NCBI RefSeq assembly: GCF_000307105.1
Contig: NC_018645.1
Coordinates: forward strand, 1,500,578-1,564,577
Source of the DNA: Desulfobacula toluolica Tol2
GTDB taxonomy: Bacteria; Desulfobacterota; Desulfobacteria; Desulfobacterales; Desulfobacteraceae
Direction of reading: 5' to 3'
DNA: 64,000 nucleotides
A program made the position numbers and the translations under genes. This document shows, one piece after another, positions 10,158 to 35,382 of the stretch. The notes beneath the pieces are model-generated. The model was given only the letters and a program-made list of their open reading frames with translations. It was not told where the DNA came from and did not search any database. Position 1 is the stretch's first letter. Every line of letters begins with the position of its first letter.

Positions 10158-10170
10158 GAGAAATTGTAGA

Positions 10171-20298: not shown

Positions 20299-20337
20299 GA
20301 ACATATGTAAATGGGAAGAGATCACTGATTGCAACTT

Positions 20338-20391
20338 ATTGTAAGTCATAAACAGATTGTAAGTCATAAACAGATTGTAAGTCATAAACAG
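20338..20391 (+). repeat. Three tandem 18-bp repeats
   Basis: ATTGTAAGTCATAAACAG occurs three times without gaps (20338-20355, 20356-20373, 20374-20391) between the 3' ends of the convergent membrane-protein and regulator genes, and is followed by a T-run. The copies are identical, so this is a recent duplication or a binding array. Confidence 0.85.
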
Positions 20392-20406
20392 ATTTTTTAC
20401 CGGAAT

Positions 20407-22077
20407 CTATTCCAGATCAATATCTGCGCTGATTTTTTTTTCGTTGAATATCTCTTGTTTTGTTATTTTCATGCGGCTGATTCGTGAGGAAAGGGTGGTG
20501 GGAGATATTCCCAGAAGCATTGCCGCACCATGATCGCCATATATTGTTCCTTTGCATTTTTTCAGGGCAGCGATCATGTTTTTCCTGGTTTTTGCCCTGA
20601 TCTGCTGTTCTGTAAAAATTACAGTCTCTTTGGTGGTATCCCATGGATTTTCAGCCGGTTCTTTGGACGTTTCAATCTGTGTGGATGCCACTGGCAAATG
20701 GAAAAAAAAACGGCCGGATCGTGATGTGATAACGGCTCGTTCAATAATATTTTGCAGTTCCCGCACATTTCCTGGCCACTCGTAATCCATGAGTTCTCTT
20801 ATGTTTGAATCGGTCAGCTGTGGCACGGCATGATTCATTTTTTTTGACACGGATTTTAAAAAATGCCTGGCAAGAATGGGGATATCCTTTTTTCGTTTGC
20901 GCAATGGGACAACTTCAATTGGAAAAACATTGAGCCTGTAATACAAATCCTGCCGAAAATTACCGGCTGCAATTTCCTGTTCAATGTTTCTGTTGGTGGC
21001 GGCAATGATTCTGACATCCACTTTCCGGGTCTTTTCTTCTCCGATACGTTCATACATGCCTTCTTGAAGAACTCGAAGCAGTTTTCCCTGGATTAAAAGC
21101 GGTATTTCCCCGACTTCATCCAAAAACAGGGTTCCTCCGTCTGCTGCCTGGAATCTCCCCCCTCTGTCAGATATGGCTCCGGTAAACGCCCCTTTTTTGT
21201 GGCCGAAGAACTCGCTTTCATACAGTTCTCCTGGAATGGAGGCGCAATTAACGCTTATCATGGGTTTTTTCTTGCGAAGGCTGCGCTTGTGGATCTCTCT
21301 TGCCACAAGCTCCTTGCCTGTTCCCGATTCTCCGAGAATCAGGACACTGGCCTCGGTTGGCGCAACCTGGGCGATCTGGTCAAGCATGCTGATTACAGGA
21401 GGGCTTTTTCCGATAATCCCCCCGGGTGACTGGATGTGATGAATCTCGTTTCTCAGGTATTCATTTTCCAATTCAAGCTGGGCTCTTAATGATTCAATTT
21501 CTTCAAACGCCCGTGCATTGGAAAGGGCAAAGGCAACAAATCCGGCAACATTTCCCAGCCAACGGTCTCCTCTTCTGACCCGCTTAAGATCAATCAGGGC
21601 ATAAACCGCTATGATGCCGAGAATATCATTTTTCAAGGCAAGGGGCTGAATCCCGACGCCAACGATTTCCGGGGTTGTATCCTGTATGTCCTGAAATAAT
21701 TTTTTCTGGTTTTCATCAAAGTTATGAATTCGAATTCCCACCCCTGTCAGGGCCACACTGCCTATTTCGGAAAATCCTATTGGAATACGGCTGTCCGCTC
21801 CGGTGGTGCAGTTCCATGCGGTGTTTTCCTTGTGTTTTGTAACGCTTGCCACCATGTGAAGGCAGGATGTTTCCCGGCACAGATGTTTTCTGTGGCATGC
21901 ATTGCAATCCTTGCCCGGCTGCACTGTCCATATTCTGACAAGCCCTACATGGGGTCTTGCTGCAAAGGTTTTTGCAACCAAATGAGGTATCTCTTCTGCC
22001 GAACACTTTCTTCCCATATGCAACATGAGATCCTGAAGCGAATCAAATTCCGGCTCATAATTTTGTGAAATTTCCAT
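20407..22077 (-). CDS. Sigma-54-dependent regulator with GAF-like sensor
   Basis: A 556-aa enhancer-binding protein. Residues 1-190 form a GAF-like sensor containing an unusual cysteine group (CNACHRKHLCRETSCLHMVA) that could hold a metal or Fe-S centre. The AAA+ domain (residues about 220-450) has Walker A GESGTGKE, sigma-54 loop GAFTGA and Walker [10 protein letters not shown] Fis-type HTH ends the protein. It is divergent from the reductive-dehalogenase cluster and is the natural candidate for its activator. ATG 22077 is given; GTG 22095 in frame is possible and neither has a good ribosome binding site. A truncated paralogue lies at 6442-7344. Confidence 0.88.
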   Translation of the reverse strand: MEISQNYEPEFDSLQDLMLHMGRKCSAEEIPHLVAKTFAARPHVGLVRIWTVQPGKDCNACHRKHLCRETSCLHMVASVTKHKENTAWNCTTGADSRIPIGFSEIGSVALTGVGIRIHNFDENQKKLFQDIQDTTPEIVGVGIQPLALKNDILGIIAVYALIDLKRVRRGDRWLGNVAGFVAFALSNARAFEEIESLRAQLELENEYLRNEIHHIQSPGGIIGKSPPVISMLDQIAQVAPTEASVLILGESGTGKELVAREIHKRSLRKKKPMISVNCASIPGELYESEFFGHKKGAFTGAISDRGGRFQAADGGTLFLDEVGEIPLLIQGKLLRVLQEGMYERIGEEKTRKVDVRIIAATNRNIEQEIAAGNFRQDLYYRLNVFPIEVVPLRKRKKDIPILARHFLKSVSKKMNHAVPQLTDSNIRELMDYEWPGNVRELQNIIERAVITSRSGRFFFHLPVASTQIETSKEPAENPWDTTKETVIFTEQQIRAKTRKNMIAALKKCKGTIYGDHGAAMLLGISPTTLSSRISRMKITKQEIFNEKKISADIDLE

Positions 22078-22111
22078 AGGTGCATAATCTACCACGAAAA
22101 AGCAGGAAATT

Positions 22112-22146
22112 CCAACTCATTTTCGTTGGCCACGAAAATGAGTTGG
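22112..22146. promoter_or_regulatory. 35-bp palindrome upstream of the sigma-54 regulator
   Basis: CCAACTCATTTTCGT (22112-22126) and ACGAAAATGAGTTGG (22132-22146) are perfect 15-bp inverted arms around TGGCC. A further CCACGAAAA half-site lies at 22092-22100. The location, 35 bases upstream of the regulator start and inside the divergent promoter region, suggests an operator, possibly the enhancer site of the regulator itself. It could also form a hairpin. Confidence 0.65.
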
Positions 22147-22213
22147 CAAAAGGCTTGACCCGGCAGGATAAAAAAACATTACCATTTCATTAACTTATGG
22201 TTGTTTTATGATG

Positions 22214-22229
22214 TGGCATGGTTTTTGTT
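22214..22229 (+). promoter_or_regulatory. Possible sigma-54 promoter of the reductive-dehalogenase cluster
   Basis: TGGCATG-GTTT-TTGTT fits the -24/-12 layout (TGGCAC-N5-TTGCW) with the -24 GG intact and the -12 GC changed to GT. It faces the cluster and lies about 70 bases from the palindrome upstream of the divergent sigma-54 regulator. The mismatch in the -12 element keeps this tentative. Confidence 0.35.
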
Positions 22230-22274
22230 TAAGACCAATATTTGAGTATTGTTTTTTATCAGAGAATGGAACCC

Positions 22275-22346
22275 GGAATGCGGCTGTACCCTGGAATAAG
22301 GGTAAAGGCCGGAATAAGTCTGAAATTCGGAATACTTGTCTGATAA
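22275..22346 (+). repeat. Four GGAAT iterons with an exact 18-nt period
   Basis: GGAAT occurs at 22275, 22293, 22311 and 22329, each 18 bases apart, with partially conserved following bases (GGAATAAGG, GGAATAAGT, GGAATACTT). An outer inverted pair, ATCAGA (22258-22263) and TCTGAT (22339-22344), and short internal hairpins (TACCC with GGGTA) could fold the leader. It lies between the putative promoter and the first gene of the cluster. It may be a direct-repeat binding array or a structured leader. Confidence 0.45.
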
Positions 22347-22419
22347 ATGAAATAAACCGGTTCAACCTTCAGGGAAGACACCGGTACGGTAATTTGTAAT
22401 TTGATAAGGATACAACTTC

Positions 22420-22914
22420 ATGTTTTTTAAAAAACCAATGAGCAACAGATCAAAGCTCATTTTATTGTACGGTTTTCTTGTTTTAACGGCAGTGGCTGTT
22501 TTTTTCCAGTCACAAGGGCCTTCGCGCCTTAAAACCGAACATTTATGGACAAACAACAGCAATCCCGACGAGCTGAATGCGTTGCCTGCCTTGACACAAG
22601 AAAAAGTCTATTCGGCTCTGGCAAATGTTAAAGATCCTGAACTTCAGCTTAATATCCATGAACTTGGGTTGATTTATGAGATGAGCATTGTCAAAAGGGC
22701 CGTAAATATAATCATGACATTGACCACGCCCAATTGTCCTTTTTCCAAGACCTTTATCCAGAGTATTAAAAAGGAATTGCTGGCCATTCCTGAGATTGAA
22801 ACCATCAAGCTGAGTTTGACTTTTGATCCTCCATGGACAATCAACAGGCTTGCACCTGAAATAAGAGATCAACTCATTGGCGTCGATCAGGCACCAGATC
22901 ACCTTCAAAATTAA
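22420..22914 (+). CDS. Membrane-anchored DUF59 (MIP18/SufT-like) protein
   Basis: A 164-aa protein: one N-terminal membrane helix (residues about 13-31), a linker, and a DUF59/MIP18 domain from about residue 60 (LANVKDPELQLNIHELGLIY, then a TLTTPNCPFS motif with the conserved cysteine). DUF59 proteins such as SufT and PaaD act in Fe-S cluster maturation, normally in the cytosol. Here one is tethered to the membrane by an N-terminal anchor. As first gene of the cluster it probably helps mature the Fe-S dehalogenases. TAAGGA lies nine bases before the ATG. Confidence 0.8.
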   Translation: MFFKKPMSNRSKLILLYGFLVLTAVAVFFQSQGPSRLKTEHLWTNNSNPDELNALPALTQEKVYSALANVKDPELQLNIHELGLIYEMSIVKRAVNIIMTLTTPNCPFSKTFIQSIKKELLAIPEIETIKLSLTFDPPWTINRLAPEIRDQLIGVDQAPDHLQN

Positions 22915-22920
22915 GGATGC

Positions 22921-23559
22921 ATGATGTTACCGTCTCTGGAACCTGCAATAAACGGTTTTTTGCTGGGTATTGCCACGGGCCCTGCCTGCTTCAGCAGCTG
23001 TGTGCCTGTACTTTTTTCCGTAAGTCTTGCCAGGGGGCAGATCGCTTCACGCTCATCCAACTGGAATTTTCTTTTTAAATTCATTGGCGGCAGGTTTATG
23101 GCTTACCTTGTTTTTGGCCTTGCCATCGGGCTTGTGGGTGACGTATTGGGTGTCTATGGATTCAAGATAGGTGCATGGGCCACTATAGTGCTGTCCATAC
23201 TTCTTGTAGCCTATGGCATGGGCATCAAACTTCCCCATTTTGGAATGTGCGCGCGGGCCAATAAGATTGGCAGTTCGCCTTATTTTCCTTATGTGTTGGG
23301 GATATTAACCGGCCTTAATGTCTGTCCGCCTTTTCTTCTGGCAATTTCATATTGTCTTCAAAAATCCGCCAACCCATTGTTCGGGATTCTTTTTTTTCTG
23401 GCATTTTTTCTGGCCACCACTCTTTACATCCTTCCCATGGGATTTATGGGAAGGTTTACGGGTCAAAAGAAATTGATTCTTCTGGGCCGGGCCGCATCGG
23501 TTGGCGTGGGTATCTTTTTTTGCTGGAAAGCATTGTCAATTTTGAGGCTGATATCATGA
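22921..23559 (+). CDS. DsbD/CcdA-like (SafE-type) six-helix membrane protein
   Basis: A 212-aa protein of about six helices with the paired-cysteine layout of the CcdA/DsbD and sulfite-exporter TauE/SafE group: ATGPACFSSCVPVLFS in helix 1 and GLNVCPPFLLAI in helix 4. CcdA-like proteins pass reducing equivalents across the membrane through these cysteines. In this setting it could keep exported cysteine-rich redox proteins reduced. AAGGA lies just upstream of two adjacent ATG codons. The stop overlaps the next gene (ATGA). Confidence 0.75.
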   Translation: MMLPSLEPAINGFLLGIATGPACFSSCVPVLFSVSLARGQIASRSSNWNFLFKFIGGRFMAYLVFGLAIGLVGDVLGVYGFKIGAWATIVLSILLVAYGMGIKLPHFGMCARANKIGSSPYFPYVLGILTGLNVCPPFLLAISYCLQKSANPLFGILFFLAFFLATTLYILPMGFMGRFTGQKKLILLGRAASVGVGIFFCWKALSILRLIS

Positions 23560-23993
23560 AAACCCTTGGTTCAGTAAACCAGCCCATCCCATACGATCAG
23601 AAGACCAAACACAGGAGGAGTGTAATGGAAATCGCTGCTTTTTATCTTGTTGCCTGCCTGTTCATGGCAATATCCGCCGTACTTTCCGGCACTCAATGGA
23701 ATGAAGCAAACGGAGTTATGGAATATTTGCGGTTAATTTTGTTGAACAAACCCGTCATTATTCTGCTTACACTTGTTATTTTTATTTTGAGCGGCATCCT
23801 GGTACAGATCGGAAAATTTCATTTTCATCTTTCTTATTACGAGATATCCATCATCTGGCTTGCCACCTCATGGGTATCCATTGCCACTTTGTGGATCATC
23901 AGTGGAATAAAGCCCTCCTGGCCGGAACTTGCCGGTATTGTTTTTTGTCACATCGGCCTTGGTATTTCAACCATCGCACGCATATCCACCTGA
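23556..23993 (+). CDS. Four-helix membrane protein of unknown function
   Basis: A 145-aa protein with about four membrane segments after a hydrophilic N-terminus of about 25 residues. No known family is recognised. ATG 23556 overlaps the stop of the upstream gene, so the two are coupled. Its place immediately before the first dehalogenase suggests an accessory or membrane-organising role. Confidence 0.65.
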   Translation: MKTLGSVNQPIPYDQKTKHRRSVMEIAAFYLVACLFMAISAVLSGTQWNEANGVMEYLRLILLNKPVIILLTLVIFILSGILVQIGKFHFHLSYYEISIIWLATSWVSIATLWIISGIKPSWPELAGIVFCHIGLGISTIARIST

Positions 23994-24116
23994 TCATAAA
24001 AATATAAAAAGGAGGAGATGACCCGCAACGGTCTGGTCAACCAAACAAAAACATGTGCATGGAATATCAGGCACAGCAAAACATTATTGGCTTAAATATT
24101 TTTGGAGAAAAATTTT

Positions 24117-26036
24117 ATGGATGAAAAACTGAAAAAATACATACTGATCGGTCTATGGGTGGCCGCAGCAGCATCTTTGGTATGGTTTTTTGCATCTGAG
24201 CTGAACATCAACGCTCTTTTTGCAATCATGCTGTGTGTTGCCGCTGCCATGGGCTGGTGGAGCATGATGTTTAAAATTACTGAAAAAATGCGGAACATTG
24301 GAATTATTTCCATGTCGAGTTTCTGGACAATCATCGCATTTTTCATGTTCTTTCCTTTTCCCGCACCTGAAGCACCTCAGTATATCCAGGGCGAGGTTCA
24401 CCGGTTCAGCGAAATGAACCATGGATTCGGAAGGGCATATATGGGGGTTTTAGGGCCTCAGATCAACAACCACGGATATGTCTACACAGACAAGGAAATG
24501 ATTGAACCCCTTGCCAAGGCACGTGGCGGTAAAAAACCAAGCTTTACAACAACACTTCCCCTGTCACGGGCATTGTTTGGTGCCACTACGCTGCTGGACG
24601 GTCTTCGGGCACCGGACCAGGTACAGGGCGAGCCAGTAAAGGTTCTCAAATACCCCTGGACTACATTTGAAGGCGCCCACCGGGATAAAAAAATTGGGTG
24701 GAACAAAGGAGATGTTCTTCTGGGCAATGTTGCCGGAAAACTGGGCTATAAAACAGCCAAATACACGCCTGAAGAAAACGCTCTCATGGTCAAGGAAATC
24801 GGACTGTGGCTGGGTTCTGAAGATGTGGGAATCTGCAGGGTCGACCCGAGATGGTTCTTTTCTCATGATATCATGACAGCGGGCACCCCTCTGCCCCTTG
24901 AAAAAGTTGAGGAACTCAAATACGGCATCCAGGTTTTCACGGATCAGAGATGGCGAAGAGTTTTAAATGATCCGGGCTGGTCTTGGTGGAGCATCACAAA
25001 AAGCGGCCAGGCATACAGCACCAGTGCTTTTATTGCCGTGCGCCTTGCCCAGACACTCAGGGATATGGGATATGCGGCAAGGGTTGGTCATGGCGGTATC
25101 AATTATGAAACCATTGAAACTCCGTTTTCCGTTTATTGCGGGCTGGGTGAATATGGCCGGTTGAGCGATGCTGTTGTGCCGTCTGTTGGAGGATTGCGGT
25201 TTAAATCCGCCACCATCCTGACGGATTTTCCCATGGCCGTAGATCCTCCCCGCCAGTCCTACGGGGTTACCCGGTTTTGCAGTCATTGTGACCGGTGCGC
25301 CCGTTCCTGCCCGGTGAATGCCATTCCCATGGGAAAAAGAACCATTGAGAACGGAATTGAAATGTGGCATGTGGACAAGGATAAATGTGTCCGGTTCAGA
25401 ACCGGAAACCTAAACGGCAACTGCTGCAACGAGTGCCTGAAATCCTGTCCTTACAACAAACCGGCCACAGCTTTCCATCTTATGGGCAATTACATGCTCA
25501 AGCATTCGTATCTTGCACCCTTTCTTTTCGGAAACGTCAATGGTGTGGGCCTTGAAGACTGGCTCGACTATCAATACGGCACGGAATCAAAACAATTCGG
25601 AGTAAACCGTCCTGCACGGTGGATACTTGAAAATCCGGGATTTAAAACCGAATTTCCCCGAAAAGTCGGACGTTACATCTATACGGAAGAAGACAGAAGC
25701 CCGGATGAAGAGTGGGCAACGGGTGTAGGTGCCAAAATGGGTAAGGTAGGCGTGACTTACAAAGGCATTCAATGGGGTGAAATTCCAGCCCGTTTACTTG
25801 ATGAAAACGGAAGAAGCAAAAATGTGCATTGGGACAACCCCAAAGGGGAGCTTGACAAGGATGTCAAGGCCATTGGAAAAGTGCTGACCAAAGAGGAAGC
25901 CGATGCCATGCTCAAGGAAGGAAAGGCCTTTTCCGGCGGATGGTATAAAAAAGACGAAGATGTTTATCCGAGGCGGTCAAAATATGAAAAAGGCACCTGG
26001 TCCTATGAAAAGGCTGCGGATGACTGGGCTCTGTAA
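24117..26036 (+). CDS. rdhA: Reductive dehalogenase homologue with N-terminal transmembrane helices
   Basis: A 639-aa RdhA-type protein. Three membrane helices (about residues 8-24, 29-49 and 57-78) replace the Tat signal of classical respiratory RdhA. The corrinoid-binding catalytic domain follows, then two Fe-S motifs: CSHCDRCARSCPVNAIP near residue 388 and CCNECLKSCPYNKP near residue 437. The family reductively removes halogen from organic compounds using a corrinoid. By the positive-inside rule the helices would place the catalytic domain outside. ATG 24117 follows GGAG; an in-frame TTG at 24102 is disfavoured. RdhAs with N-terminal helices are known from genome surveys; their substrates are not established. 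Confidence 0.88.
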   Translation: MDEKLKKYILIGLWVAAAASLVWFFASELNINALFAIMLCVAAAMGWWSMMFKITEKMRNIGIISMSSFWTIIAFFMFFPFPAPEAPQYIQGEVHRFSEMNHGFGRAYMGVLGPQINNHGYVYTDKEMIEPLAKARGGKKPSFTTTLPLSRALFGATTLLDGLRAPDQVQGEPVKVLKYPWTTFEGAHRDKKIGWNKGDVLLGNVAGKLGYKTAKYTPEENALMVKEIGLWLGSEDVGICRVDPRWFFSHDIMTAGTPLPLEKVEELKYGIQVFTDQRWRRVLNDPGWSWWSITKSGQAYSTSAFIAVRLAQTLRDMGYAARVGHGGINYETIETPFSVYCGLGEYGRLSDAVVPSVGGLRFKSATILTDFPMAVDPPRQSYGVTRFCSHCDRCARSCPVNAIPMGKRTIENGIEMWHVDKDKCVRFRTGNLNGNCCNECLKSCPYNKPATAFHLMGNYMLKHSYLAPFLFGNVNGVGLEDWLDYQYGTESKQFGVNRPARWILENPGFKTEFPRKVGRYIYTEEDRSPDEEWATGVGAKMGKVGVTYKGIQWGEIPARLLDENGRSKNVHWDNPKGELDKDVKAIGKVLTKEEADAMLKEGKAFSGGWYKKDEDVYPRRSKYEKGTWSYEKAADDWAL

Positions 26037-26063
26037 TAAGAAAAATTGATAAAGGAGTTGTTT

Positions 26064-26285
26064 ATGTCTTTAAAAATAGGTTCAAAAGAGTTGTCACTCA
26101 GCCTCACATGGATTGAGATGTGGGGCTGGTCAGTGGTGATCGGAATGCTCCTGTTCGGATTGTGGGGTTTTTATGACGGCATTGAAGTGGGAAGTCTCAG
26201 GGCGGGATGGCGGTTTATTGCCATGTTTCTGATCTTCACGGCTCCGGGCTTTGTGACCATGGTTTTTTTCAAGCCAAAAGAATAA
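26064..26285 (+). CDS. Small two-helix membrane protein (RdhB-like position)
   Basis: A 73-aa protein with two membrane segments (about residues 17-38 and 49-68), preceded by a strong AAAGGAG. It follows the dehalogenase by 27 bases, where rdhB membrane-anchor genes usually lie. RdhB proteins are about 75-105 aa with two or three helices, so size and position fit, but sequence similarity is not obvious to me. An extra anchor would be surprising because the dehalogenase already has helices. Confidence 0.6.
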   Translation: MSLKIGSKELSLSLTWIEMWGWSVVIGMLLFGLWGFYDGIEVGSLRAGWRFIAMFLIFTAPGFVTMVFFKPKE

Positions 26286-26305
26286 TTATGTAAAAACTCA
26301 TGATT

Positions 26306-26405
26306 AAAAGCTCCCCGAGAAGGGCACCCGCGACCGTGCAAAAAAGCGTTGCAAAAAAGTCCTGCATACGCTTGTGTTGCAGTTTCCAAACCCGGGGAGC
26401 TTTTT
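26306..26405 (+). ncRNA. Predicted three-helix structured RNA or terminator with U-tract
   Basis: AAAAGCTCCCCG (26306-26317) pairs perfectly with CGGGGAGCTTTT (26393-26404), closing a 75-base interior. Inside are GCAC/GTGC (26324-26339) and a ten-pair helix with one bulge, AAGCGT-TGCA with TGCA-T-ACGCTT (26344-26373). A T-run ends the outer helix. Between the small membrane gene and the second dehalogenase, it could be a terminator with an insert, or a structured non-coding RNA. Confidence 0.5.
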
Positions 26406-26521
26406 AAAATACCATGGATCATTTATGATACGCAAATATTTTTATACTTCAGTATATTTTACGAAAACAGGCGGTTATGCAGTGATTTTTCTAACTATAC
26501 TGATCAGTAAAGGATTGTAAT

Positions 26522-27925
26522 ATGAAATCGGGATGGAAATGGTTTGAGATATCAAGCCTTCTGTTTCTTATCACCCTGGATGCCTTGCTGTTTGTTCTCA
26601 GCACCATACTTTTTTCGGAAAAAATGGGCAGGGGGCTGATTATCAGTTTGAGTGCATTCATCTTTATGTCGGGCGTCACTTTTTTCTTTGTAAAATTAAA
26701 AAGCAAGGGCTGTTTTGAAAACAAAAAAGCAAAAAAACAGATCATTGCGGCCCTGTGTGCTGCCGGCCTGTTTACTCTGGCCCTTTTTGTTCCGACCGAG
26801 CAAAGCAGCCGTTCAGACGTTCTTGGCTCAACTGATATCAAGGGGGAACAGCAGCGGTATGATGCAAGGGAACAGCCGGGGGCGGAGCTGTATACTGATA
26901 TGAACGATGCGGTTCCAACAGATCAGTTGACTCTTTCCATCTATGATATCTGTGTGGGAAAAGTTTCTTATAAAGTACACAGGGATGGAACACCTGCATC
27001 CCCCAGAATAGAGGTAACAAATCCCCAAGTCCTGACAGATCATATCAAGGATCAGGCAAAAGCACTGGGTGCAAGGGTGGTGGGCGTTACTGAACTTGAT
27101 TCAACCTATGTGTTTACAAATGATCATGCAGGCAATCCCATCAGGCTTTCTCATCCCAATGCAATTGTCGTGGGAAAGGATCTTAAATATACACTGGCCA
27201 GCCCGACAGCTCCTCTTCCCTGGGAAGAGATGTATTCTTCCATTCCAGAGGAACTTGCTGCAGCCCTGTCCGGCCGGGTGGTTAAGTCGGCAGAAAAGAT
27301 ATCAGACAAAGATCTGGAAGAGTTGAAACAAGCCATGAGATTTTTTTCCGAAGGCGGAAAAACCGCAGTTGAACTGGCAAGGTTTATCCGGGGGATGGGG
27401 TATTCGGCAAGAGCCCATTATACCAGGTGGAGCGAGGTTCAGATCATTCCCCTTGCCATAAAGGCAGGGCTTGGAGAGCTGGCGCGAAACGGCATGATCA
27501 TTAACAAAGAAATGGGGCCCAGGGGGTCGTTTGCCGTTGTTACAACTGATCTGCCCCTTGTGTTTGACCGGCCAATCAGGCTTGGTATCAAAGAGTTCTG
27601 CAATACCTGTAAAAAATGTGCTGATTATTGCCCTGTAAAAGCCATCCCTTTTGGTTCTCCAAATTGGGTCAGAGGCGCTTTGAAATGGTCTGTTGACGGG
27701 AAAAGATGCGGCGACTACCTGGTTTCCAATCCAAAATGCCTGGCCTGCATCGGGTCATGTCCTTATAACAAACCCGATAATATACTGCATGACGCAGCAA
27801 ACTTTATGGTTTCAAAAAGATCCAGGCTGACCAACTGGCTGATGGTAAAAATAGACGATCTTCTGGGATACGGTCAAATGGCTGCGCCTGATCCCAAATT
27901 TCTTGAACAATTGAATCAGGGTTGA
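26522..27925 (+). CDS. rdhA: Second, shorter reductive dehalogenase homologue with N-terminal membrane helices
   Basis: A 467-aa protein. Three membrane helices (about residues 8-30, 36-57 and 75-90) separated by positively charged loops precede a compact RdhA-like corrinoid domain. Two Fe-S motifs follow: CNTCKKCADYCPVKAIP near residue 360 and CLACIGSCPYNKP near residue 406. It lacks about 170 residues relative to the first dehalogenase. The epoxyqueuosine reductase QueG shares this fold, but QueG is cytosolic and has no membrane helices. Whether it is a catalyst or an electron-transfer partner of the first enzyme cannot be told. The ATG follows GGATTGTA, a weak site. Confidence 0.82.
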   Translation: MKSGWKWFEISSLLFLITLDALLFVLSTILFSEKMGRGLIISLSAFIFMSGVTFFFVKLKSKGCFENKKAKKQIIAALCAAGLFTLALFVPTEQSSRSDVLGSTDIKGEQQRYDAREQPGAELYTDMNDAVPTDQLTLSIYDICVGKVSYKVHRDGTPASPRIEVTNPQVLTDHIKDQAKALGARVVGVTELDSTYVFTNDHAGNPIRLSHPNAIVVGKDLKYTLASPTAPLPWEEMYSSIPEELAAALSGRVVKSAEKISDKDLEELKQAMRFFSEGGKTAVELARFIRGMGYSARAHYTRWSEVQIIPLAIKAGLGELARNGMIINKEMGPRGSFAVVTTDLPLVFDRPIRLGIKEFCNTCKKCADYCPVKAIPFGSPNWVRGALKWSVDGKRCGDYLVSNPKCLACIGSCPYNKPDNILHDAANFMVSKRSRLTNWLMVKIDDLLGYGQMAAPDPKFLEQLNQG

Positions 27926-27928
27926 ATT

Positions 27929-28126
27929 TTGAACGATACACACAATCACACAAAGACTTTGTTGGCAAGACTGAACAGCAGCAGATATGCCGGTCTTGTC
28001 TGGCTTGTCCTGGCCGGCAGCCTTGCAGGTTGCGGATTCAATATTGCATTCGGCACTTTTTTTCTGGATATGCAGGGCCTTTTAGGCGGTGCAATCAGCG
28101 GGGTTCTGATCCATGCGATTTCATAA
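27929..28126 (+). CDS. Small membrane protein (RdhB-like position)
   Basis: A 65-aa protein with one or two hydrophobic segments (YAGLVWLVLAGSLAGCGFNI and a glycine-rich second one). The start is TTG at 27929, three bases after the stop of the second dehalogenase, with AGGG about eight bases before it. No family is recognised. By position it parallels the small membrane gene after the first dehalogenase. Confidence 0.5.
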   Translation: MNDTHNHTKTLLARLNSSRYAGLVWLVLAGSLAGCGFNIAFGTFFLDMQGLLGGAISGVLIHAIS

Positions 28127-28128
28127 AT

Positions 28129-28219
28129 TAATTAACGGCCATGGCAGATCAAAATGGTGCAACAAAAAACAAAAAAGATTTGATTTCAAGATGTTAAAAA
28201 TTGTTTTGTACAAAAAAAG
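28129..28219 (+). repeat. Two-hairpin leader element, copy E
   Basis: Shares the core ATTAACGGCCATGGCAGATC and a following AACAAA stretch with copies at 31592, 39213, 39285, 41622 and 53880. ACAAAA (28169-28174) pairs with TTTTGT (28204-28209), and the second hairpin is followed by an A-rich tract instead of T. It ends nine bases before the next start codon. Confidence 0.5.
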
Positions 28220-28227
28220 GCAGTGAT

Positions 28228-28584
28228 ATGACAGATTTGTTTTTGAATATTATTCCCAATGCAATCCTTGCAGGCATTGGTGTCTACATCATCATAACGG
28301 CATTGTTAAAGGATCTTATACCCGGTAATCAAACCGCTACAGTGCTTACGGCACCCGGACAGTTTGATCCTGACATGGGCGGCAACGCCTGTTTTGCAAT
28401 GCATCTGCCGTTAAGGGTGATTTTGGATGACAACTCGGTTACCACCGCATATATCAGCGCCTGCAACATGTGCATGAATAGCGTTAAGCAAGGTGACCGG
28501 GTCTGTCTTGACACAAGCGGGGACTGTTTGACCGCAAAAAAAATCATGACCGCAAAAAAAAATATGGCAGGAAGAACATCATGA
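28228..28584 (+). CDS. Small protein with one N-terminal membrane helix, unknown function
   Basis: A 118-aa protein with a single membrane anchor (residues about 8-27) and a soluble domain containing four cysteines (ACFAMH, SACNMCMN and VCLDTS segments). No family is recognised. ATG 28228 is chosen over an in-frame start at 28201 because the first lies inside the leader element. The stop overlaps the ATG of the permease gene, so the two are coupled. Confidence 0.6.
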   Translation: MTDLFLNIIPNAILAGIGVYIIITALLKDLIPGNQTATVLTAPGQFDPDMGGNACFAMHLPLRVILDDNSVTTAYISACNMCMNSVKQGDRVCLDTSGDCLTAKKIMTAKKNMAGRTS

Positions 28585-30035
28585 TGGGCATGGCCGCACT
28601 CTTTTTTTTTCTTTTTCTTCTTCTTGCATCCTTCAGGCAATGGATAAGGCAGGATGTGCTGCCTCTTCAGTCCATCCTGGTGCTGGGGTCTCTGGTGCTT
28701 GTTGTCATGGCCATGGTTTTTAACGTTGAATTCAGGGTGTCCCAGATTTTTTCGGCAGCAACCCTTCATCCCATTACCGCAACCATTGCCGGTTTTTTGC
28801 TGGCAGGTGCCGTGGACGCAGCAGGCGGGTTCAAGGCTGCGGCAAAAATTTTAACCCGCATCTCCCAAGGCAGGATTCTGGGGCTTTCCGGCACGATCTT
28901 TTTGCTGGTGAACGTACCCACCATATTTGCCATGCCCTGCGGCAGAGTCTGGGCAGCCGCCCTTATCCCCGCCACCATCATGTTCGGCATGACAGTGGCA
29001 CGCCTACAGAACCGGCCGTCTCTTGTGCCGGCAATTGTCTTTGGCCTGATCGTGAATGCTGCGGCATCCTGCGGCCCGTCTCCGCTGGGAGGCATCGGCA
29101 TGATTGTTGAGGGAACAGCAGGATATGCCCTTCACGCCTTTTCCAATTCCCAGCAGATTTCCATCATGGTTATAACCATTTTGACCATGTTTCTGGTGGC
29201 TTTTTTTTCAAAGATCACTGTTCCCATGGACGAGGCCGGGCCGGAAAACCGGGAGGTCAAAACGCTGCCTGATTCCGCCTATTTTGCATTTTTTTTGTAT
29301 ATGGCCGGTCTGGGAGCGGTTTTTATCTTTGAGCCTCCCGTACCCATTCAGACCGTACTGCTGGTCATGACCATCTTTGTCATGGCTGTGGGAAATGTGG
29401 GCTTTAAAAGCCTTGTTGCCGGCATTATCATTCACCCGGTAACGGCCATGGTGGCTGGATTCATGATGGCCGGAGCCCTTATGGTTACAGGCGGGTTTGA
29501 GGCATTGACAACCCTGCTTGTCTGGCTTGCCACACACACTCCCCTGGGGTTTGTCGGGGTGGGTGTGGTATTGATCTACATCCCGGTTATCTTCCCCATG
29601 CCCTGCGGCAGAATTACGGCGGCGGCTCTGCTGCCCGGTGTTTTGATGTTTGGGATGGAAGTGAGCAAAAGCACAGGGATAGACCATTGCCTTCCGGTCA
29701 TGCTGGTGGGTTTTGTGGTCTGCTGTGCCGCCTCCTGCGCTCCGTCTCCCCTGGGTGGTATCGGCGGCATTGGTGAAGGGAACCTGAGACTGAAAAGCGG
29801 CATAACTGCAAATGCCCTTCAAATCAGTATCCTGCTGGGTGCGCCTGTTGCAGGACTGATTGTCGCCGGTATCGGGCTGACAAACCGTATGTTCATGCTC
29901 GATGAGATGGCGGTTTCAATCGGAATTGCCGTCATCTGCGGGATACTTACCAATATTCTTTCCGGCTATAAACCCTGCAAGCCTGGGGGGATTCTCGGCG
30001 GCATTCTCGTGGGTGTGCTGATAATGGTGCTTTAA
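28581..30035 (+). CDS. Internally duplicated 12-helix permease, unknown substrate
   Basis: A 484-aa polytopic protein of two homologous halves. HP(I/V)TA occurs at residues 63 and 285, MPCGR with following AAAL at 119 and 341, and SC(G/A)PSPLGGIG at 164 and 386. Each pair is offset by exactly 222 residues. Such inverted- or direct-repeat halves with discontinuous helices are typical of ion-transporter superfamily carriers, but I do not recognise the family. The conserved cysteines in both PCGR and SCxPSPLGG motifs are unusual. Placed between dehalogenases and Fe-S proteins, it may move halide, an organic acid or a substrate; this is inference. Confidence 0.75.
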   Translation: MMGMAALFFFLFLLLASFRQWIRQDVLPLQSILVLGSLVLVVMAMVFNVEFRVSQIFSAATLHPITATIAGFLLAGAVDAAGGFKAAAKILTRISQGRILGLSGTIFLLVNVPTIFAMPCGRVWAAALIPATIMFGMTVARLQNRPSLVPAIVFGLIVNAAASCGPSPLGGIGMIVEGTAGYALHAFSNSQQISIMVITILTMFLVAFFSKITVPMDEAGPENREVKTLPDSAYFAFFLYMAGLGAVFIFEPPVPIQTVLLVMTIFVMAVGNVGFKSLVAGIIIHPVTAMVAGFMMAGALMVTGGFEALTTLLVWLATHTPLGFVGVGVVLIYIPVIFPMPCGRITAAALLPGVLMFGMEVSKSTGIDHCLPVMLVGFVVCCAASCAPSPLGGIGGIGEGNLRLKSGITANALQISILLGAPVAGLIVAGIGLTNRMFMLDEMAVSIGIAVICGILTNILSGYKPCKPGGILGGILVGVLIMVL

Positions 30036-30052
30036 TAATCTATGGTGCTATA

Positions 30053-30529
30053 ATGAAAAAAAAATTTTTATACATAAATGTTTTTTGTTATCTGTGTATT
30101 GCCGCTTTTCTTGCCGCCACCATCGGTACATCCTTGAAGTCAGGATATCCATGGGCCATGACCTGTTATAACTGCGTGCTGGGACGGCAGATCTGTCCTC
30201 TGGGAATTGATCCCTATGGCTTTATATCGGCTGCCATCACCAATGATCCTGAAATTTATGTGAGTGCAACCAACATACGGATGAAACTTGGAAAAGCCTT
30301 GGATATTGATCCGAATATGACCCTGATCCTTCCGGACAAGTCTCTGGTGACTGCTCAAACATTATCTTTGACCCAAAAGGATTTGGATTATGAAGTTACC
30401 ACACACAAAATAAAGGTTAAGGATGCCGCAACTTTCTGTCCTCTTTGCGGCAATTGTGACAGGGTGTGTCCCATTAATCTGCCGGTTTTAAAAATAATTG
30501 AGGACTTAAAAGACGATGGAAAATTCTAA
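30053..30529 (+). CDS. Membrane-anchored Fe-S protein
   Basis: A 158-aa protein with an N-terminal membrane helix (residues about 5-26). Two cysteine motifs follow: CYNCVLGRQICPLGIDP near residue 38 and a typical 4Fe-4S motif, CPLCGNCDRVCPINLP, near residue 130. It probably transfers electrons at the membrane, most simply to the dehalogenases. Its 3' end overlaps the next Fe-S gene by 14 bases. Confidence 0.78.
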   Translation: MKKKFLYINVFCYLCIAAFLAATIGTSLKSGYPWAMTCYNCVLGRQICPLGIDPYGFISAAITNDPEIYVSATNIRMKLGKALDIDPNMTLILPDKSLVTAQTLSLTQKDLDYEVTTHKIKVKDAATFCPLCGNCDRVCPINLPVLKIIEDLKDDGKF

Positions 30530-31235
30530 CCGTGAAAAAAAACGGTCCTATGCAGGGCTTTTGATGCTGATTTTGTTTCTTGGTATTGCCGGAGGGGTAT
30601 ATGTGATTCAAACCGATCTGAAAAAAATATTTCCCGGCACCTATCCAGGTGTTGTGCCTCCCATTCAGGCAAAGTTCTTTTTTTTACGAGACATGATTGA
30701 AATAAGGCTGTCCAGGGAGCCGTCATCAGACCGGATTGTTATTTTTGCCTATGATGATGCGGGCCGCCAGGTGACAATCTTAAAACCCATATATGACCGG
30801 GTGGTGAAAGTTATGCCGGGTGATCTTGCCGACTTTCGTGTTGATTTTACAAAAGGGAAAACCCCTGGATTCGAGGTTTTTAAAAAAGCCAATAATCTTA
30901 TGGAAGAGGTGAATTTTTTTGACCTTATGATTGCTGCAAAAGCCGAAAATTTAAAATTCGGGGTTCAAGAATGCCTTTATCCTGCGTGTTCCATGTGTGT
31001 ATCTGTCTGCCCGGTCATTGCAAACGGGGTGATCACCATGCCGCGCCTGGAAGATGGGCGCATACACCCCGTTATTAAACATGGCGGGTGTCCGCGATCC
31101 GGCAAATGTTTTTCTTTGTGTAAAATGGGGGTTATCTATAAGACGGATTTGCGGCTGAGCATAAAACCGGAATATTTGGATAAAGGCAATGAGGACTGGT
31201 CATATTTTGATACAAAAAAAGGAAGACAGCAATAA
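30516..31235 (+). CDS. Membrane-anchored Fe-S protein with extracytoplasmic domain
   Basis: A 239-aa protein: basic N-terminus, one membrane helix (residues about 13-32), a domain of about 110 residues without known match, then a cysteine-rich region (CLYPACSMCVSVCPVIANG and CPRSGKCFSLCKMG) consistent with two Fe-S clusters. The charge distribution predicts that the cysteine region lies outside the membrane. It overlaps both neighbours and belongs to the same operon. Confidence 0.75.
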   Translation: MENSNREKKRSYAGLLMLILFLGIAGGVYVIQTDLKKIFPGTYPGVVPPIQAKFFFLRDMIEIRLSREPSSDRIVIFAYDDAGRQVTILKPIYDRVVKVMPGDLADFRVDFTKGKTPGFEVFKKANNLMEEVNFFDLMIAAKAENLKFGVQECLYPACSMCVSVCPVIANGVITMPRLEDGRIHPVIKHGGCPRSGKCFSLCKMGVIYKTDLRLSIKPEYLDKGNEDWSYFDTKKGRQQ

Positions 31236-31555
31236 TGTTTCTGGCCCTGTACACTTCCTGCGTGATTATCTGCGTAGGGCTTTTGATCTATTCGATTGTT
31301 TTTCAAATCATCAACAAACGTCTCCAGGTTATGCTCTGTACGGAATGCCGTCAATGCATGGCAGTCTGTCCGCTACTGTCCAAGGGGTGCAACCCAATGG
31401 AAATCATGCTGGGTGCTAAAATTGATCAGCTTGACCAGGTCATGGGGCAGGGCGGGGCTTTGTGCGTGAGCTGCAAAAAATGCCAAAAGGCTTGTCCCAG
31501 GGGACTTGCACCCTTTGAGGAAGTTGAAAAATGGAAAAACCTTAACCTGGAATAA
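31235..31555 (+). CDS. HdrC-like small Fe-S protein with membrane helix
   Basis: A 106-aa protein with an N-terminal membrane helix (residues about 4-27) followed by two classic 4Fe-4S motifs, CTECRQCMAVCP and CVSCKKCQKACP. This is the HdrC/GlpC-type dicluster arrangement. The positive residues after the helix place the clusters on the cytoplasmic side, opposite to the prediction for the two preceding proteins. The ATG overlaps the previous stop (TAATG). It may be the entry point of electrons into the system. Confidence 0.78.
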   Translation: MFLALYTSCVIICVGLLIYSIVFQIINKRLQVMLCTECRQCMAVCPLLSKGCNPMEIMLGAKIDQLDQVMGQGGALCVSCKKCQKACPRGLAPFEEVEKWKNLNLE

Positions 31556-31591
31556 CTGCCGCGGCATACCTGGTAGTTCTTTCTGGTTTGC

Positions 31592-31690
31592 CTATAACTG
31601 TCACGGGCAGACTTGGTCTTTCACCTTGGTTTGCCCACAAAAAAGATTGAAAGTCGCTGTTTGAACTTTTAAAGATTTTTTTGGAAAGAA
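31592..31690 (+). repeat. Two-hairpin leader element, copy A
   Basis: GGGCAGAC (31605-31612) pairs with GTTTGCCC (31629-31636). AAAGTC then pairs with GATTTT, and a T-run follows (to 31682). The element ends about 27 bases before the ATG of the PpiC-type gene and lies in its orientation. It is closely similar to copy B. Confidence 0.65.
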
Positions 31691-31716
31691 TATTAATTGA
31701 AAAAGGATAAAAAAAA

Positions 31717-32730
31717 ATGAAAAAAATACCTCTTATTATTTGTTTAATACCAGCTCTGTTTATTGGGCTGTTTTACGGCATCACAGCTGCAGCTTCTTCG
31801 TTAAACGATGAGGTACAGTCAGATGAAAAAGAAGGTGTTGTTGTTGCCGTGATCAACGGATCAAAAATTTACAGGACAGCTCTGGATCTTGAGGTTAAAA
31901 GCCTTACCGCCCATCTTCTGAGCCTGGGTGATCCAGTGCCCAAGTCAGATGAACCTGAAATAAGAAAAAAAGCCCTGGAAAGCCTTATTAATGCCGAAAT
32001 CCTATATACGGCAGGCCTGAAAGCCGGATATGATATTGATGCAGCATTAATTGACCAGGAAATTCAACAGGTTAAAGATCAATTTGAAACACCCGCTGAT
32101 TATCAAAAAATGCTTGAAAGCATCCATTTTACTGAAAATCAATTGAGACGACATTTTAAAAAAGGCCTGGTTGTTAAAAATTTTGTGGAGCAGGAATTTG
32201 AAAAAAAAGTGATCGTAACTCCCCGGGATATCCGGCAATATTACACTGATCATCCTGAAAAATTCAACCGGCCGGAAGAAGTTAAGGCCAGCCATATTCT
32301 TATCAAGCTGGATGAAAACGCCACACCTGCACAGAAAATAAATGCAAAAAAAGAAATTGAAACCATCCTGGCCCAGATCAAGGCAGGCAAAGATTTTGCC
32401 ACCCTTGCAAAAGCCCTGTCCCAATGCCCCAGCAACAGCGATGGGGGAGATCTTGGCTATTTTAAAAGAGGAGTCATGGAAAAAAGCTTTGAAGATGCCG
32501 CTTTTTCACTTGAACCCGGCCAATCAAGCGGTATTGTCTTAACAAGTTTTGGATATCACATTATCACTGTCACCGGCAAAAAGCTTGAAAGCACGGTTCC
32601 TTTTGAAAAAGCTGAAAAAAGAATCCAGCGGCATTTGACCCTCCATCGATCCAAGGCGCTTTTAGATAAATTTGTAGACCTGCAGAGGCAATCGGCAACC
32701 ATTGATATTGAGAAACAGCCGGAGGCATAA
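31717..32730 (+). CDS. SurA/PpiC-type periplasmic peptidyl-prolyl isomerase
   Basis: A 337-aa exported protein. The signal peptide covers residues 1-about 27 (cleavage near TAAASS). A SurA_N-like chaperone region follows (about 40-175). A parvulin domain (about 185-290) contains VKASHILIKLDENATPAQ, FATLAKALSQCPSNSDGGDL, GYFKRGVMEKSFE and the FGYHIITV ending. It probably helps fold envelope proteins in the periplasm. AAGGA precedes the ATG. A two-hairpin leader element is just upstream. Confidence 0.88.
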   Translation: MKKIPLIICLIPALFIGLFYGITAAASSLNDEVQSDEKEGVVVAVINGSKIYRTALDLEVKSLTAHLLSLGDPVPKSDEPEIRKKALESLINAEILYTAGLKAGYDIDAALIDQEIQQVKDQFETPADYQKMLESIHFTENQLRRHFKKGLVVKNFVEQEFEKKVIVTPRDIRQYYTDHPEKFNRPEEVKASHILIKLDENATPAQKINAKKEIETILAQIKAGKDFATLAKALSQCPSNSDGGDLGYFKRGVMEKSFEDAAFSLEPGQSSGIVLTSFGYHIITVTGKKLESTVPFEKAEKRIQRHLTLHRSKALLDKFVDLQRQSATIDIEKQPEA

Positions 32731-32806
32731 TTTGCTGGTTAATGAGTTTTAATATTTTTAAGGCAAGTGGGGGGGCATAGGCTCAATGGGATCAGGCTTG
32801 TGTTAT

Positions 32807-32824
32807 TGTTAGCTTTTGCTAACA
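32807..32824. repeat. Short hairpin in the intergenic region after the PpiC-type gene
   Basis: TGTTAGC-TTTT-GCTAACA is a perfect seven-pair stem with a four-base loop; the flanks GATCAGG and CTTGATC partly extend it. No T-run follows, so it is not a clear intrinsic terminator. The surrounding 32731-32955 holds no supported gene. Confidence 0.4.
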
Positions 32825-32955
32825 CCTTGATCATAAGGAGGCCTTCAAAAAAGAGTGCCGACAATGCAGGCATGATCCTTGATCTGTTGGAAAATATAGG
32901 TGTCAAATGCACGGCAGGTATTTTAGCCGCGTTATGATTCTTATTTTATGTGTTT

Positions 32956-35382
32956 TCAGATTCCTGTTTTATATTGGGCGTTGGTGGATGGATGAATAAT
33001 TTGTTTGAGTTCTTTTTTTGAATCAGGTTTTGAATCAGGTTTTGAATCAGGTTTTGAATCAGGTTTTGAATCAGGTTTTGAATCAGGTTTTGAATCAGGT
33101 TTTGAATCAGGTCTTGAATCAGGACTTCCATTTATAAGATTCTCAAAAAGCCGTACGATTCCGGATTTATCCATATCCATTGTATCAATTTTCGTTCCGG
33201 TTTTTATATCCCTTAAGTCAATGAAAAAACCGGAAAAAAGATCCGGCAAATCAGTGACAATATCTGTATTCAGGAAATTAATATTATTATACATGCAATG
33301 ATAGTCCCCCTTTTTTTTATCAATCAAAAAGCAAACCTTTTTTAAATTTGTGATTGAGCAGGATTTATTACACTCTTGAATACATTCATCATCAATCTTG
33401 GTTTTTTTGCACCCAATGGTCTGATGAAATAAGCATTGCCTGCTGGTTAGAAGCAAAATAGGGTGATATATACTATAGTACAGTTTGAAATCATCAGGAC
33501 TGACAATCCTTTTTATTTGATTTTTATTGATTTCATTTGAAATAAATGAGCCGCAACAATTAAACTTTTCTTTTATGCATAAAAGACTGAAGGAATTGGT
33601 ATTGTTAAGATAAGGCCCTGCGATCCAGGCAATTTTGTTTTCATAGGCTTTGTAAGCGATTCCGGTGTTGTTTGTTACAATGAGTTTTGGTTGCACCTGC
33701 TTGAGAAATTCCACTGCCGCAGTATAGCTTTTTCCTATCAAAACAGGCGGGAACCAGGCAATTAAATTTTTATTTTTTTGGAAAAGTTCTATGAGTTCGG
33801 CAATTTTATTTTCAAGGCAATCAGGGAGCTTATAATAGATATCGGCTGAAGTTGTATTGCACAGGTACAGATCCTTTGGGGAGGATATCAATACACAAAG
33901 AGAGGGTTTGGTTTTTAATTTGCTTTGTTTGTTTAAGACGGGAACTTTAATCGGTGCAACAATAGGTTTTGAGCCGTTTAAGAGGAATGCAATTTCATTT
34001 TTCATTGAAGTGAGTTCTTGAAACGGTATAAAAAGATCTTTTTGCAGATTTTTTAAGTCTATCTGCTCAATGTAAAATTTTGTATTATTCAAGCTCTTAA
34101 ATCTTTTTTCTATGGCGCTATGGTCAATGGTGTGTTTGTCTGCATTGATAAGATTGTTTTTTGAAAATACAGCAAATGAAGTTTCAGGTGTTTTTGCCGA
34201 TATTTTCAAAGGGGCATTTGTTTTTCCTGAGATGCTTATGGTTAAAGGAGTTTTTGCTATGCTTAAATCTTTGATTCTGTCTTTAACTGTTGTTATAATT
34301 TTTGTTTTTTCATCATAAAGTTCTTGTTTGATTTTTTCCATGCTGTTGGTTGCCGAACAGCTTTTGCTCTTTTTTTTTATCTCAAAAAGATGCTTTGCTG
34401 AATTATCCCGGGGATTATCAATAAACATATGTTTATTAATATCTCCCTTTAAATAGGCATTTGAAAAATCCCGGTTAAAAACTTTATAAAGGTCAATGTT
34501 GTCACTTGTTAAATTTTTTGTATTGTCTGTATTAGTTGCTGCATAATCTGTGTTATCTGCATTGTAAGCATTATCGACTCCGCCATGGTCATAAAAATTC
34601 AGGATTTGTTTTTTCCAGCAGTTCACCACGGTATATACATAATGAAATTTTTTTATTCTTCCTTCTATTTTAAGGGAATCAACCCCTGCATCATACAGGT
34701 TTTTGAGATCAAAGTATGCTGAATTATCCTTAAGATTAAGAGGAAAATCCTTGCCCGCAGGGGTGGTCATATATCTGTCTCTGCAAGGTTGACTGCAGCG
34801 GCCTCGATTTCCTGAATTGCCTCCGAGAATGGAACTTATGTAACAAAGTCCTGAAAAAGAGATGCAATAGGACCCATGGACAAACACTTCGGTTGAGATA
34901 TTGTTTTCACGGGCAATTGGGGTCAACTCTTTTATCTCATCAATATTCAACTCTCGTGACAGATTAACCCGGGCAGCAGCAAGTTTATTTAAAAAAAGTA
35001 TCTGGCCTTTATTATGTGTGGTGCATTGTGTGGATGCATGTATTTCAAGGTCTTTAAAATATTTGGACAACAAATAAAACAATCCTGAATCCTGAACAAT
35101 TACGCCGTCAATCTTTGTGTTTACAACTTTGTTAAGCAATCTTACAAGAGCTGGAATTTCACTTTCCAGTATGATTATATTCAGGGTTAGAAAAACTTTG
35201 CAGTTGTGCTTATGAGCAAGATTTAAAATTCCGTTTAAATCTTCAAAATTTATATTTGCCGCCCTGTTTCTGGCATTAAATTTAATCAGCCCACAGTATA
35301 CTGCATCCGCTCCTGCCAGGATGGCGGCCTTTATGGAATCAATGTCTCCGCCAGGTGCCATTAATTCAAACTTGTTTTTCAT
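32956..35382 (-). CDS. U32-family (RlhA/TrhP-like) protein with C-terminal KPDS repeats
   Basis: An 808-aa protein beginning KFELMAPGGDIDSIKAAILA, the usual start of U32 'peptidases'. The conserved block VFVHGSYCISFSGLCYISS with GNRGRCSQPCRDRY carries the family cysteines. Members such as RlhA and TrhP make hydroxycytidine or hydroxyuridine in RNA, so the old peptidase name is probably misleading. Homologues are about 450-650 aa; here a long middle region and C-terminal domain follow. The tail holds about nine KPDS-type units coded by a 12-bp tandem repeat. An in-frame start at 35472 would add 30 poorly supported residues. Confidence 0.82.
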   Translation of the reverse strand: MKNKFELMAPGGDIDSIKAAILAGADAVYCGLIKFNARNRAANINFEDLNGILNLAHKHNCKVFLTLNIIILESEIPALVRLLNKVVNTKIDGVIVQDSGLFYLLSKYFKDLEIHASTQCTTHNKGQILFLNKLAAARVNLSRELNIDEIKELTPIARENNISTEVFVHGSYCISFSGLCYISSILGGNSGNRGRCSQPCRDRYMTTPAGKDFPLNLKDNSAYFDLKNLYDAGVDSLKIEGRIKKFHYVYTVVNCWKKQILNFYDHGGVDNAYNADNTDYAATNTDNTKNLTSDNIDLYKVFNRDFSNAYLKGDINKHMFIDNPRDNSAKHLFEIKKKSKSCSATNSMEKIKQELYDEKTKIITTVKDRIKDLSIAKTPLTISISGKTNAPLKISAKTPETSFAVFSKNNLINADKHTIDHSAIEKRFKSLNNTKFYIEQIDLKNLQKDLFIPFQELTSMKNEIAFLLNGSKPIVAPIKVPVLNKQSKLKTKPSLCVLISSPKDLYLCNTTSADIYYKLPDCLENKIAELIELFQKNKNLIAWFPPVLIGKSYTAAVEFLKQVQPKLIVTNNTGIAYKAYENKIAWIAGPYLNNTNSFSLLCIKEKFNCCGSFISNEINKNQIKRIVSPDDFKLYYSIYHPILLLTSRQCLFHQTIGCKKTKIDDECIQECNKSCSITNLKKVCFLIDKKKGDYHCMYNNINFLNTDIVTDLPDLFSGFFIDLRDIKTGTKIDTMDMDKSGIVRLFENLINGSPDSRPDSKPDSKPDSKPDSKPDSKPDSKPDSKPDSKKELKQIIHPSTNAQYKTGI
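33016..33123 (-). repeat. 12-bp tandem repeat (nine units) inside the U32 gene
   Basis: TTTTGAATCAGG is repeated eight times perfectly (33016-33111), with a ninth unit changed to TCTTGAATCAGG (33112-33123). On the minus strand each unit encodes four residues (KPDS, once RPDS). Being a multiple of three, changes in copy number alter length without breaking the frame. Confidence 0.95.

Follow-up and report, generated by a model that had tools for sequence, protein, structure and literature searches.

Gene content and conservation of the locus

The stretch of DNA analysed here, referred to as the window, comprises 64,000 nucleotides (nt) of Desulfobacula toluolica Tol2 (NC_018645.1, positions 1,500,578 to 1,564,577) and falls within one contig of 5,197,905 bases. 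On its forward strand, positions 22420-31555 hold a tight set of twelve genes, which encodes a conserved, rare, and unusual membrane reductive dehalogenase (RDase) system with two RdhA homologues, RdhA1 and RdhA2. All open reading frames (ORFs) named in the initial annotation of this DNA were confirmed; four pairs of adjoining genes overlap by 1-14 nt each, and the biggest intergenic gaps inside the set measure 123, 236, and 101 nt. RdhA1 (24117..26036) is composed of three helices, an RDase core with the residues Tyr/Lys/Arg, and a conserved C-terminal extension of about 160 amino acids (aa), as judged from TIGR02486 and solved RDases. RdhA2 (26522..27925) is composed of three helices and an RDase core, which contains both Fe-S motifs and, in the alignment, Phe/Ser/Leu at the catalytic positions.

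The first gene of the set codes for a SufT/PaaD-like DUF59 protein (22420..22914; PF01883, E=5e-14) with one N-terminal helix and is followed by genes for a DsbD_2/CcdA-like membrane protein (22921..23559; PF13386, E=1e-20) and for sm145 (23556..23993), a small polytopic membrane protein of 145 aa without a Pfam match, whose gene overlaps the preceding one by 4 nt. Between the two rdhA genes lies the gene for sm73 (26064..26285), a two-helix membrane protein of 73 aa, and downstream of rdhA2 there are ORFs for a small membrane protein of 65 aa with a TTG start (sm65, 27929..28126) and for a Cys-containing protein of 118 aa with a single helix (cys118, 28228..28584). The permease-like protein (28581..30035), the two halves of which are 44% identical over 108 aa, belongs to no known family, with no match in Pfam, NCBIfam, or PDB sequences; the small membrane proteins likewise had no match in the family libraries. 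The set ends with three single-helix proteins assigned by their motifs, FeS1 (30053..30529; two Fe-S motifs), FeS2 (30516..31235; Fe-S motifs), and FeS3 (31235..31555; two [4Fe-4S] motifs). The Fe-S motifs of the trio were confirmed, several Fer4 matches being under their cut-offs. The neighbours listed in the initial annotation (DUF59, a DsbD-like protein, small membrane proteins, a novel permease, and three Fe-S proteins) are thus all present.

A contig scan with RdhA1 as query, which recovers close relatives only, yielded one relative, encoded in a metagenome-assembled genome (MAG) of Desulfovibrio sp. (locus L062), with 66% identity over query residues 1-633 (635 aligned). This locus holds 10 of the 12 genes in the same order, with identities of 35-66%, together with the divergent regulator gene discussed below. 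RdhA1 is the best-conserved protein of the set, the other nine ranging from 35 to 49%: DUF59 36%, DsbD_2 40%, sm145 48% (119 aa), sm73 41% (at the same position), RdhA2 46%, the permease 49%, FeS1 41%, FeS2 41%, and FeS3 35%. Cys106 of the DUF59 protein, Cys23, Cys27, Cys110, and Cys135 of the CcdA-like protein, and seven cysteines of FeS2 are common to both genomes. Counterparts of sm65 and cys118 are missing from the MAG locus, where only 32 nt separate rdhA2 and the permease gene. Because the MAG contig carries the set collinearly, the arrangement goes beyond chance; both RdhAs, the permease, and the Fe-S trio, whose co-occurrence had been proposed as a check, are found together in the two genomes. 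In the first Fe-S motif of FeS1, Gly replaces the third Cys in the window, and the MAG motif is complete.

The set is rare. The permease was detected in 1 of 340 genomes in a sample of the window's class, namely its own (E up to 1e-10), and in 1 of 297 class genomes and 1 of 199 family genomes sampled around the MAG, two overlapping samples in which the match was the MAG itself (E up to 1e-5). Matches to the RdhA1 core occur in 65 of the 340 class genomes, full-length matches in the own genome only, as also in a phylum sample (1/336, E up to 1e-40). IMG/VR held no relative. Spread on plasmids was considered and rejected, the RDase matches in 9 plasmid records covering 36-41% of RdhA1 and the permease having none. 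At the level of titles and abstracts, no description of the cluster was found in the literature; it is possibly annotated in the Tol2 genome (2013) or complexome (2016) paper.

For comparison, 14 other rdhA neighbourhoods were inspected, comprising 12 with membrane hybrids (see below), one with an RdhA without helices, and one with the other rdhA of the Tol2 genome (flanks of 0.25 to 9.9 kb on each side, E up to 1e-4). DUF59, DsbD_2, sm145, sm73, permease, FeS1, and FeS2 had no match in them, the sole FeS3 match was inside an rdhA, and regulator matches occurred in three. In this sample, the helpers thus accompany this particular RdhA pair rather than RdhAs in general, in keeping with the earlier proposal that the neighbours may define a distinct set.

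Active sites and relatives of the two RdhA proteins

TIGR02486 is the best family of RdhA1 (E=5e-41), although the score of 141.6 bits is under the cut-off of 160.35; RdhA2 (E=1.7e-49, 169.4 bits) is the sole cluster RdhA to pass, the MAG homologues scoring 143.2 and 140.4 bits. Both window proteins match the solved RDases 4RAS, 4UQU, and 8Q4H, and the Fe-S motifs CXXCXXCXXXCP and CXXCXXXCP are present in RdhA1 and RdhA2 of both genomes. PF13486 gave no match anywhere, controls included, and is hence uninformative.

A catalytic RDase was taken to require a Tyr together with Lys or Arg, as in NpRdhA, the catabolic RDase of Nitratireductor (Y426/K488), or SmPceA (Y246/R305). In the alignment to solved RDases, Tyr296, Lys359, and Arg424 of RdhA1 (numbered from base 24129) correspond to Y426, K488, and R552 of NpRdhA (4RAS, 6ZXU), and Ser292 to S422; this serine is kept in both genomes. 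Y426 is described as the proton donor of NpRdhA, with S422, K488, and R552 holding the phenol hydroxyl, and the variants K488Q and R552L as severely impaired (PMC7565698). RdhA2 has Phe275, Ser336, and Leu400 at the places of Y426, K488, and R552, again in both genomes; it naturally carries the equivalent of R552L along with changes at the two other catalytic places, so that the proton donor and substrate residues kept by RdhA1 are missing. For corrinoid binding, there is no simple signature in the sequence. Among 52 aligned RdhA rows, the catalytic columns read Tyr-Lys-Arg in 21 (including both RdhA1), Tyr-Arg-Trp in 29, and Phe-Ser-Leu in two, which are the two RdhA2 proteins. Without the catalytic residues, RdhA2 is therefore probably not a dehalogenase, and the initial annotation, which had counted two RdhA enzymes, has to be amended on this point. 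A pseudogene explanation was rejected, as the reading frames are uninterrupted and conserved in the MAG. A conserved, catalytically degenerate RdhA is thereby added to a family whose members usually receive a dehalogenase annotation.

NpRdhA is a soluble protein fused to a reductase (NAD-binding/iron-sulfur in the PDB name). RdhA1 differs from it in being fused to membrane helices and in having another C-terminal extension. NpRdhA contains a second RdhA-like N-terminal stretch, seen as a weak match at 4RAS 151-222, which we take to be a degenerate duplication; by analogy, RdhA1 and RdhA2 may represent a two-chain counterpart of it.

In the phylogenetic tree, RdhA1 joins the Tyr-Lys-Arg side (98/89). 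RdhA2 falls on the Tyr-Arg-Trp side but is not part of a clade of 16 membrane hybrids (100/99), to which a 17th hybrid (L061) does not belong either. The branches of RdhA1 and RdhA2 are long (1.98 and 1.72 changes per column), and the topology suggests separate origins of membrane RdhAs.

The hybrid putative RDases are described as an RdhA core on three N-terminal helices with two Fe-S motifs and no Tat motif (Atashgahi 2019, PMC6797604), and in this the cluster RdhAs resemble them. The EXE motif, which is reported to lie between the first and second helix in the majority of hybrids (PMC6797604), is present in 17/17 of the sampled hybrids but in 0/4 of the cluster RdhAs, and the hybrids have Tyr-Arg-Trp at the catalytic columns in place of Tyr-Lys-Arg or Phe-Ser-Leu. 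By charge, 16 of the 17 hybrids are C-in and one (L023, start possibly wrong) is tied, whereas the cluster RdhAs are C-out in 4/4 cases, and the 12 hybrid neighbourhoods lack the accessory set. The features of the cluster RdhAs mark them as distinct from, and not a simple continuation of, the published hybrids; the initial annotation had noted that RdhAs with N-terminal helices are known from genome surveys. For the hybrid rows themselves (loci L016-L061 of the class sample), the enzyme-inside result in 16/17 differs from the mixed orientations obtained with TMHMM and published by Atashgahi (PMC6797604).

Respiratory RDases were also compared. The menaquinol:organohalide oxidoreductase PceA2B2 has C-terminal quinone-site residues (Lys, His, Asp/Glu, Tyr) with equivalents in the cluster RdhAs; in contrast to these, PceA is described as exported by Tat and as having a separate PceB (PMC10624902). 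The quinone-site residues were rejected as evidence for respiration, as RdhAs without helices possess them too.

Orientation, export, and possible function

RdhA1 and RdhA2 each begin with three hydrophobic segments. The number of Lys and Arg residues (K+R) in the N-terminus and the loop between helices 2 and 3, relative to that in the loop between helices 1 and 2 and the 20 residues past helix 3, is 6:1 for RdhA1 and 9:5 for RdhA2, and 4:1 and 8:5 for the respective MAG proteins, corresponding to an N-in/C-out orientation. By charge, DUF59, FeS1, and FeS2 are also N-in/C-out and FeS3 is N-out/C-in, in both genomes. A twin-arginine translocation (Tat) signal of the type RRXFXK was not found: RR is absent from the first 130 residues of the two window RdhAs and of the MAG RdhA1, and the single RR of the MAG RdhA2 (residue 111) is located past helix 3, so that none of the four cluster RdhAs has a twin arginine ahead of helix 3. 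The initial 60 residues of DUF59, FeS1, FeS2, and FeS3 are likewise free of RR; the DsbD_2 ORF has one at residue 4 in the MAG only. Both genomes encode TatC and CbiC, so that the Tat pathway and corrinoid synthesis are apparently available. Two assertions of the initial annotation stand on these data, the first that both RdhA homologues start with three helices and no Tat signal, and the second that by the positive-inside rule both catalytic domains would lie outside; the charge bias of two genomes agrees with this, and the catalytic domains of RdhA1 and RdhA2 are predicted to be exoplasmic.

These features can be read as a dedicated, patchily distributed, exoplasmic membrane-fused RDase system of the NpRdhA type, with RdhA1 as catalytic subunit and a degenerate RdhA as its partner, an interpretation on which, taken as a whole, our judgement is evenly balanced. 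RdhA1, anchored by its three N-terminal helices, would work on the outer face of the membrane and probably dehalogenate a hydroxylated aromatic compound, and RdhA2 would likely be either a partner of RdhA1 that relays electrons or a subunit that holds a cofactor. FeS3, at the inner face, might hand electrons via the small membrane proteins to FeS1, FeS2, and RdhA2 at the outer face. The DUF59 protein, through Cys106, and the CcdA-like protein could supply or protect Fe-S sites outside, the PpiC-like protein encoded downstream may assist folding, and the permease probably transports substrate or product. In a bolder version, which we consider unlikely, the locus would specify a self-contained assembly of Fe-S/corrinoid enzymes outside the cell membrane that replaces Tat altogether, consisting of Sec-inserted apoproteins, an outward-facing DUF59 carrier kept reduced by the CcdA-like protein, a dead RdhA paralogue which holds cofactor, and the dedicated permease.

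Several points weigh against the exoplasmic interpretation. It is unusual for Fe-S and corrinoid domains to reach the outside independently of Tat, and the topology was derived from a hydropathy scan and K+R counts; for cys118, the charge decides in favour of neither orientation. The window sm145 has an RR directly ahead of its first hydrophobic segment, which leaves a slight chance of a Tat substrate among the partners. AlphaFold models computed from two-row alignments were unusable for RdhA1 and the permease (mean pLDDT 30 and 38, pLDDT being the predicted local distance difference test), the permease would be superfluous if a halophenol diffuses freely, and RdhB, RdhC, or RdhT were not recognised in Pfam/NCBIfam scans, the presence of such models in these libraries being unchecked. 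The system was found in two genomes only, and no evidence on substrate or expression of the cluster was found. Finally, approximately unbiased (AU) tests, for which the groups were defined once the tree was known, rejected neither hybrids plus RdhA2 (p 0.388), nor hybrids plus both (0.129), nor RdhA1 plus RdhA2 (0.16), and because joint clades are thus left unrejected, separate origins are not claimed.

The most serious rival, still rather unlikely in our view, holds that the charge bias misleads and that the catalytic domains are cytoplasmic, the proteins being catabolic RDases that are bound to the membrane and receive their cofactors in the cytosol, as is usual. The export problem would then vanish, and it fits this explanation that the same scan detects no N-terminal helices in the other 19 Tyr-Lys-Arg rows, that nearly all hybrids are C-in, and that FeS3 faces inside; however, the bias of all four cluster RdhAs runs opposite to that of the hybrids, and DUF59, FeS1, and FeS2 agree on the outside in two genomes. 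If the domains are outside, they could have been exported by a dual Sec-Tat route, either through an unusual Tat motif ahead of helix 3 or by riding on a Tat-targeted partner. Actinobacterial Rieske and related dual Sec-Tat proteins are described with the same layout, that is three helices, N-in, with the Fe-S domain outside (PMC5449189), TatC is available in both organisms, the window RdhA2 has a KKAKK stretch ahead of helix 3, and sm145 carries its RR before a helix. We nevertheless regard this route as very improbable, since the cluster RdhAs, unlike the actinobacterial proteins (PMC5449189), have no twin arginine before helix 3, RdhA1 has just one K/R among the 20 residues past its hydrophobic helix 3, and both the KKAKK stretch and the RR of sm145, which the MAG protein lacks, are not kept in L062. 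A third explanation concerns function, namely that the system is an RdhA-derived corrinoid reductase for a non-organohalide compound, RdhA2 forming a structural half of it. Long branches, unusual partners, the lack of a demonstrated substrate, and scores under the TIGR02486 cut-off for three of the four cluster RdhAs speak for it; we rate it as improbable, as RdhA1 has the Tyr, Lys, and Arg of NpRdhA as well as Ser292 in both genomes and the regulator is a sister of one beside another rdhA.

The exoplasmic interpretation bears on a question raised by Atashgahi (2019, PMC6797604) for the hybrids, namely how outward-oriented ones are exported. For 16/17 hybrids, the charge pattern (inside) removes this question, and it is sharpened for the present set, in which four RdhAs as well as DUF59, FeS1, and FeS2 are predicted to face outward in two distant genomes and bear no Tat motif themselves. 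Should this be borne out, it would suggest that Fe-S and corrinoid maturation takes place outside the cytoplasm.

Regulatory region and flanking genes

Divergent to the set lies a gene for a sigma-54-dependent activator (20407..22095, reverse strand; PF00158, E=1e-71), a bacterial enhancer-binding protein (bEBP) which likely regulates the operon. It shares 51.6% identity (547 aa) with the bEBP encoded next to the other rdhA of the genome (L093) and, across 231 aa in the AAA region, 52% with the divergent bEBP at the same place in the MAG. For 31 deltaproteobacterial rdh clusters, 22 such regulator genes have been reported (Liu and Haggblom, PMC6299228). The intergenic region contains a perfect inverted repeat of 15 bp with a spacer of 5 nt (22112..22146), a candidate activator site; repeats of at least 13 bp occurred in 0/2000 single-base shuffles of the 325-nt region. 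A -24/-12-like sigma-54 promoter, TGGCATGGTTTTTGTT, was assigned at 22214..22229 on the forward strand with the consensus as given in PMC6299228. The pattern has 3 matches in the window with 1.9 expected by chance and, being no rarer than this, the site is argued from position alone. The corresponding regions of L062 and L093 yielded neither an inverted repeat of this kind nor a -24/-12-like element.

Between sm73 and rdhA2, a GC-rich imperfect inverted repeat (26306..26404, forward strand) has 29-nt arms that are 72% complementary and a T-run at its end, and is possibly a processing or attenuation hairpin. An Rfam search (E up to 1) of the region 20000-33500, this repeat included, gave no riboswitch or other RNA match. 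The GC content is 0.45-0.51 across 24001-30000 and 0.35-0.46 in the remaining 2-kb bins of the window, which is compatible with transfer.

The other rdhA of the Tol2 genome (L093, G000:C1:111300-131200, 9474-12580) codes for a protein of the Tyr-Lys-Arg type with 414 aa and no helices and is divergent to its bEBP gene; a Prismane-family protein and a transposase are encoded nearby. Nearly identical RdhAs are reported to be shared by D. toluolica and D. phenolica (Liu and Haggblom, PMC6299228). The Desulfovibrio MAG also encodes another RdhA (L065, G340:C127), with the Tat-like motif TRRAFIK near the N-terminus.

Downstream of the set, after a gap of 161 nt, follows a gene for a PpiC/SurA-like peptidyl-prolyl isomerase with a hydrophobic N-terminus (31717..32730, forward strand; PF00639, E=3e-29). 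Its membership in the set is uncertain; it has no homologue at the MAG locus, where a PDZ protein occupies this place. Farther on, an ORF of 838 aa ends in a run of PDSK repeats (window positions 32956-33301).

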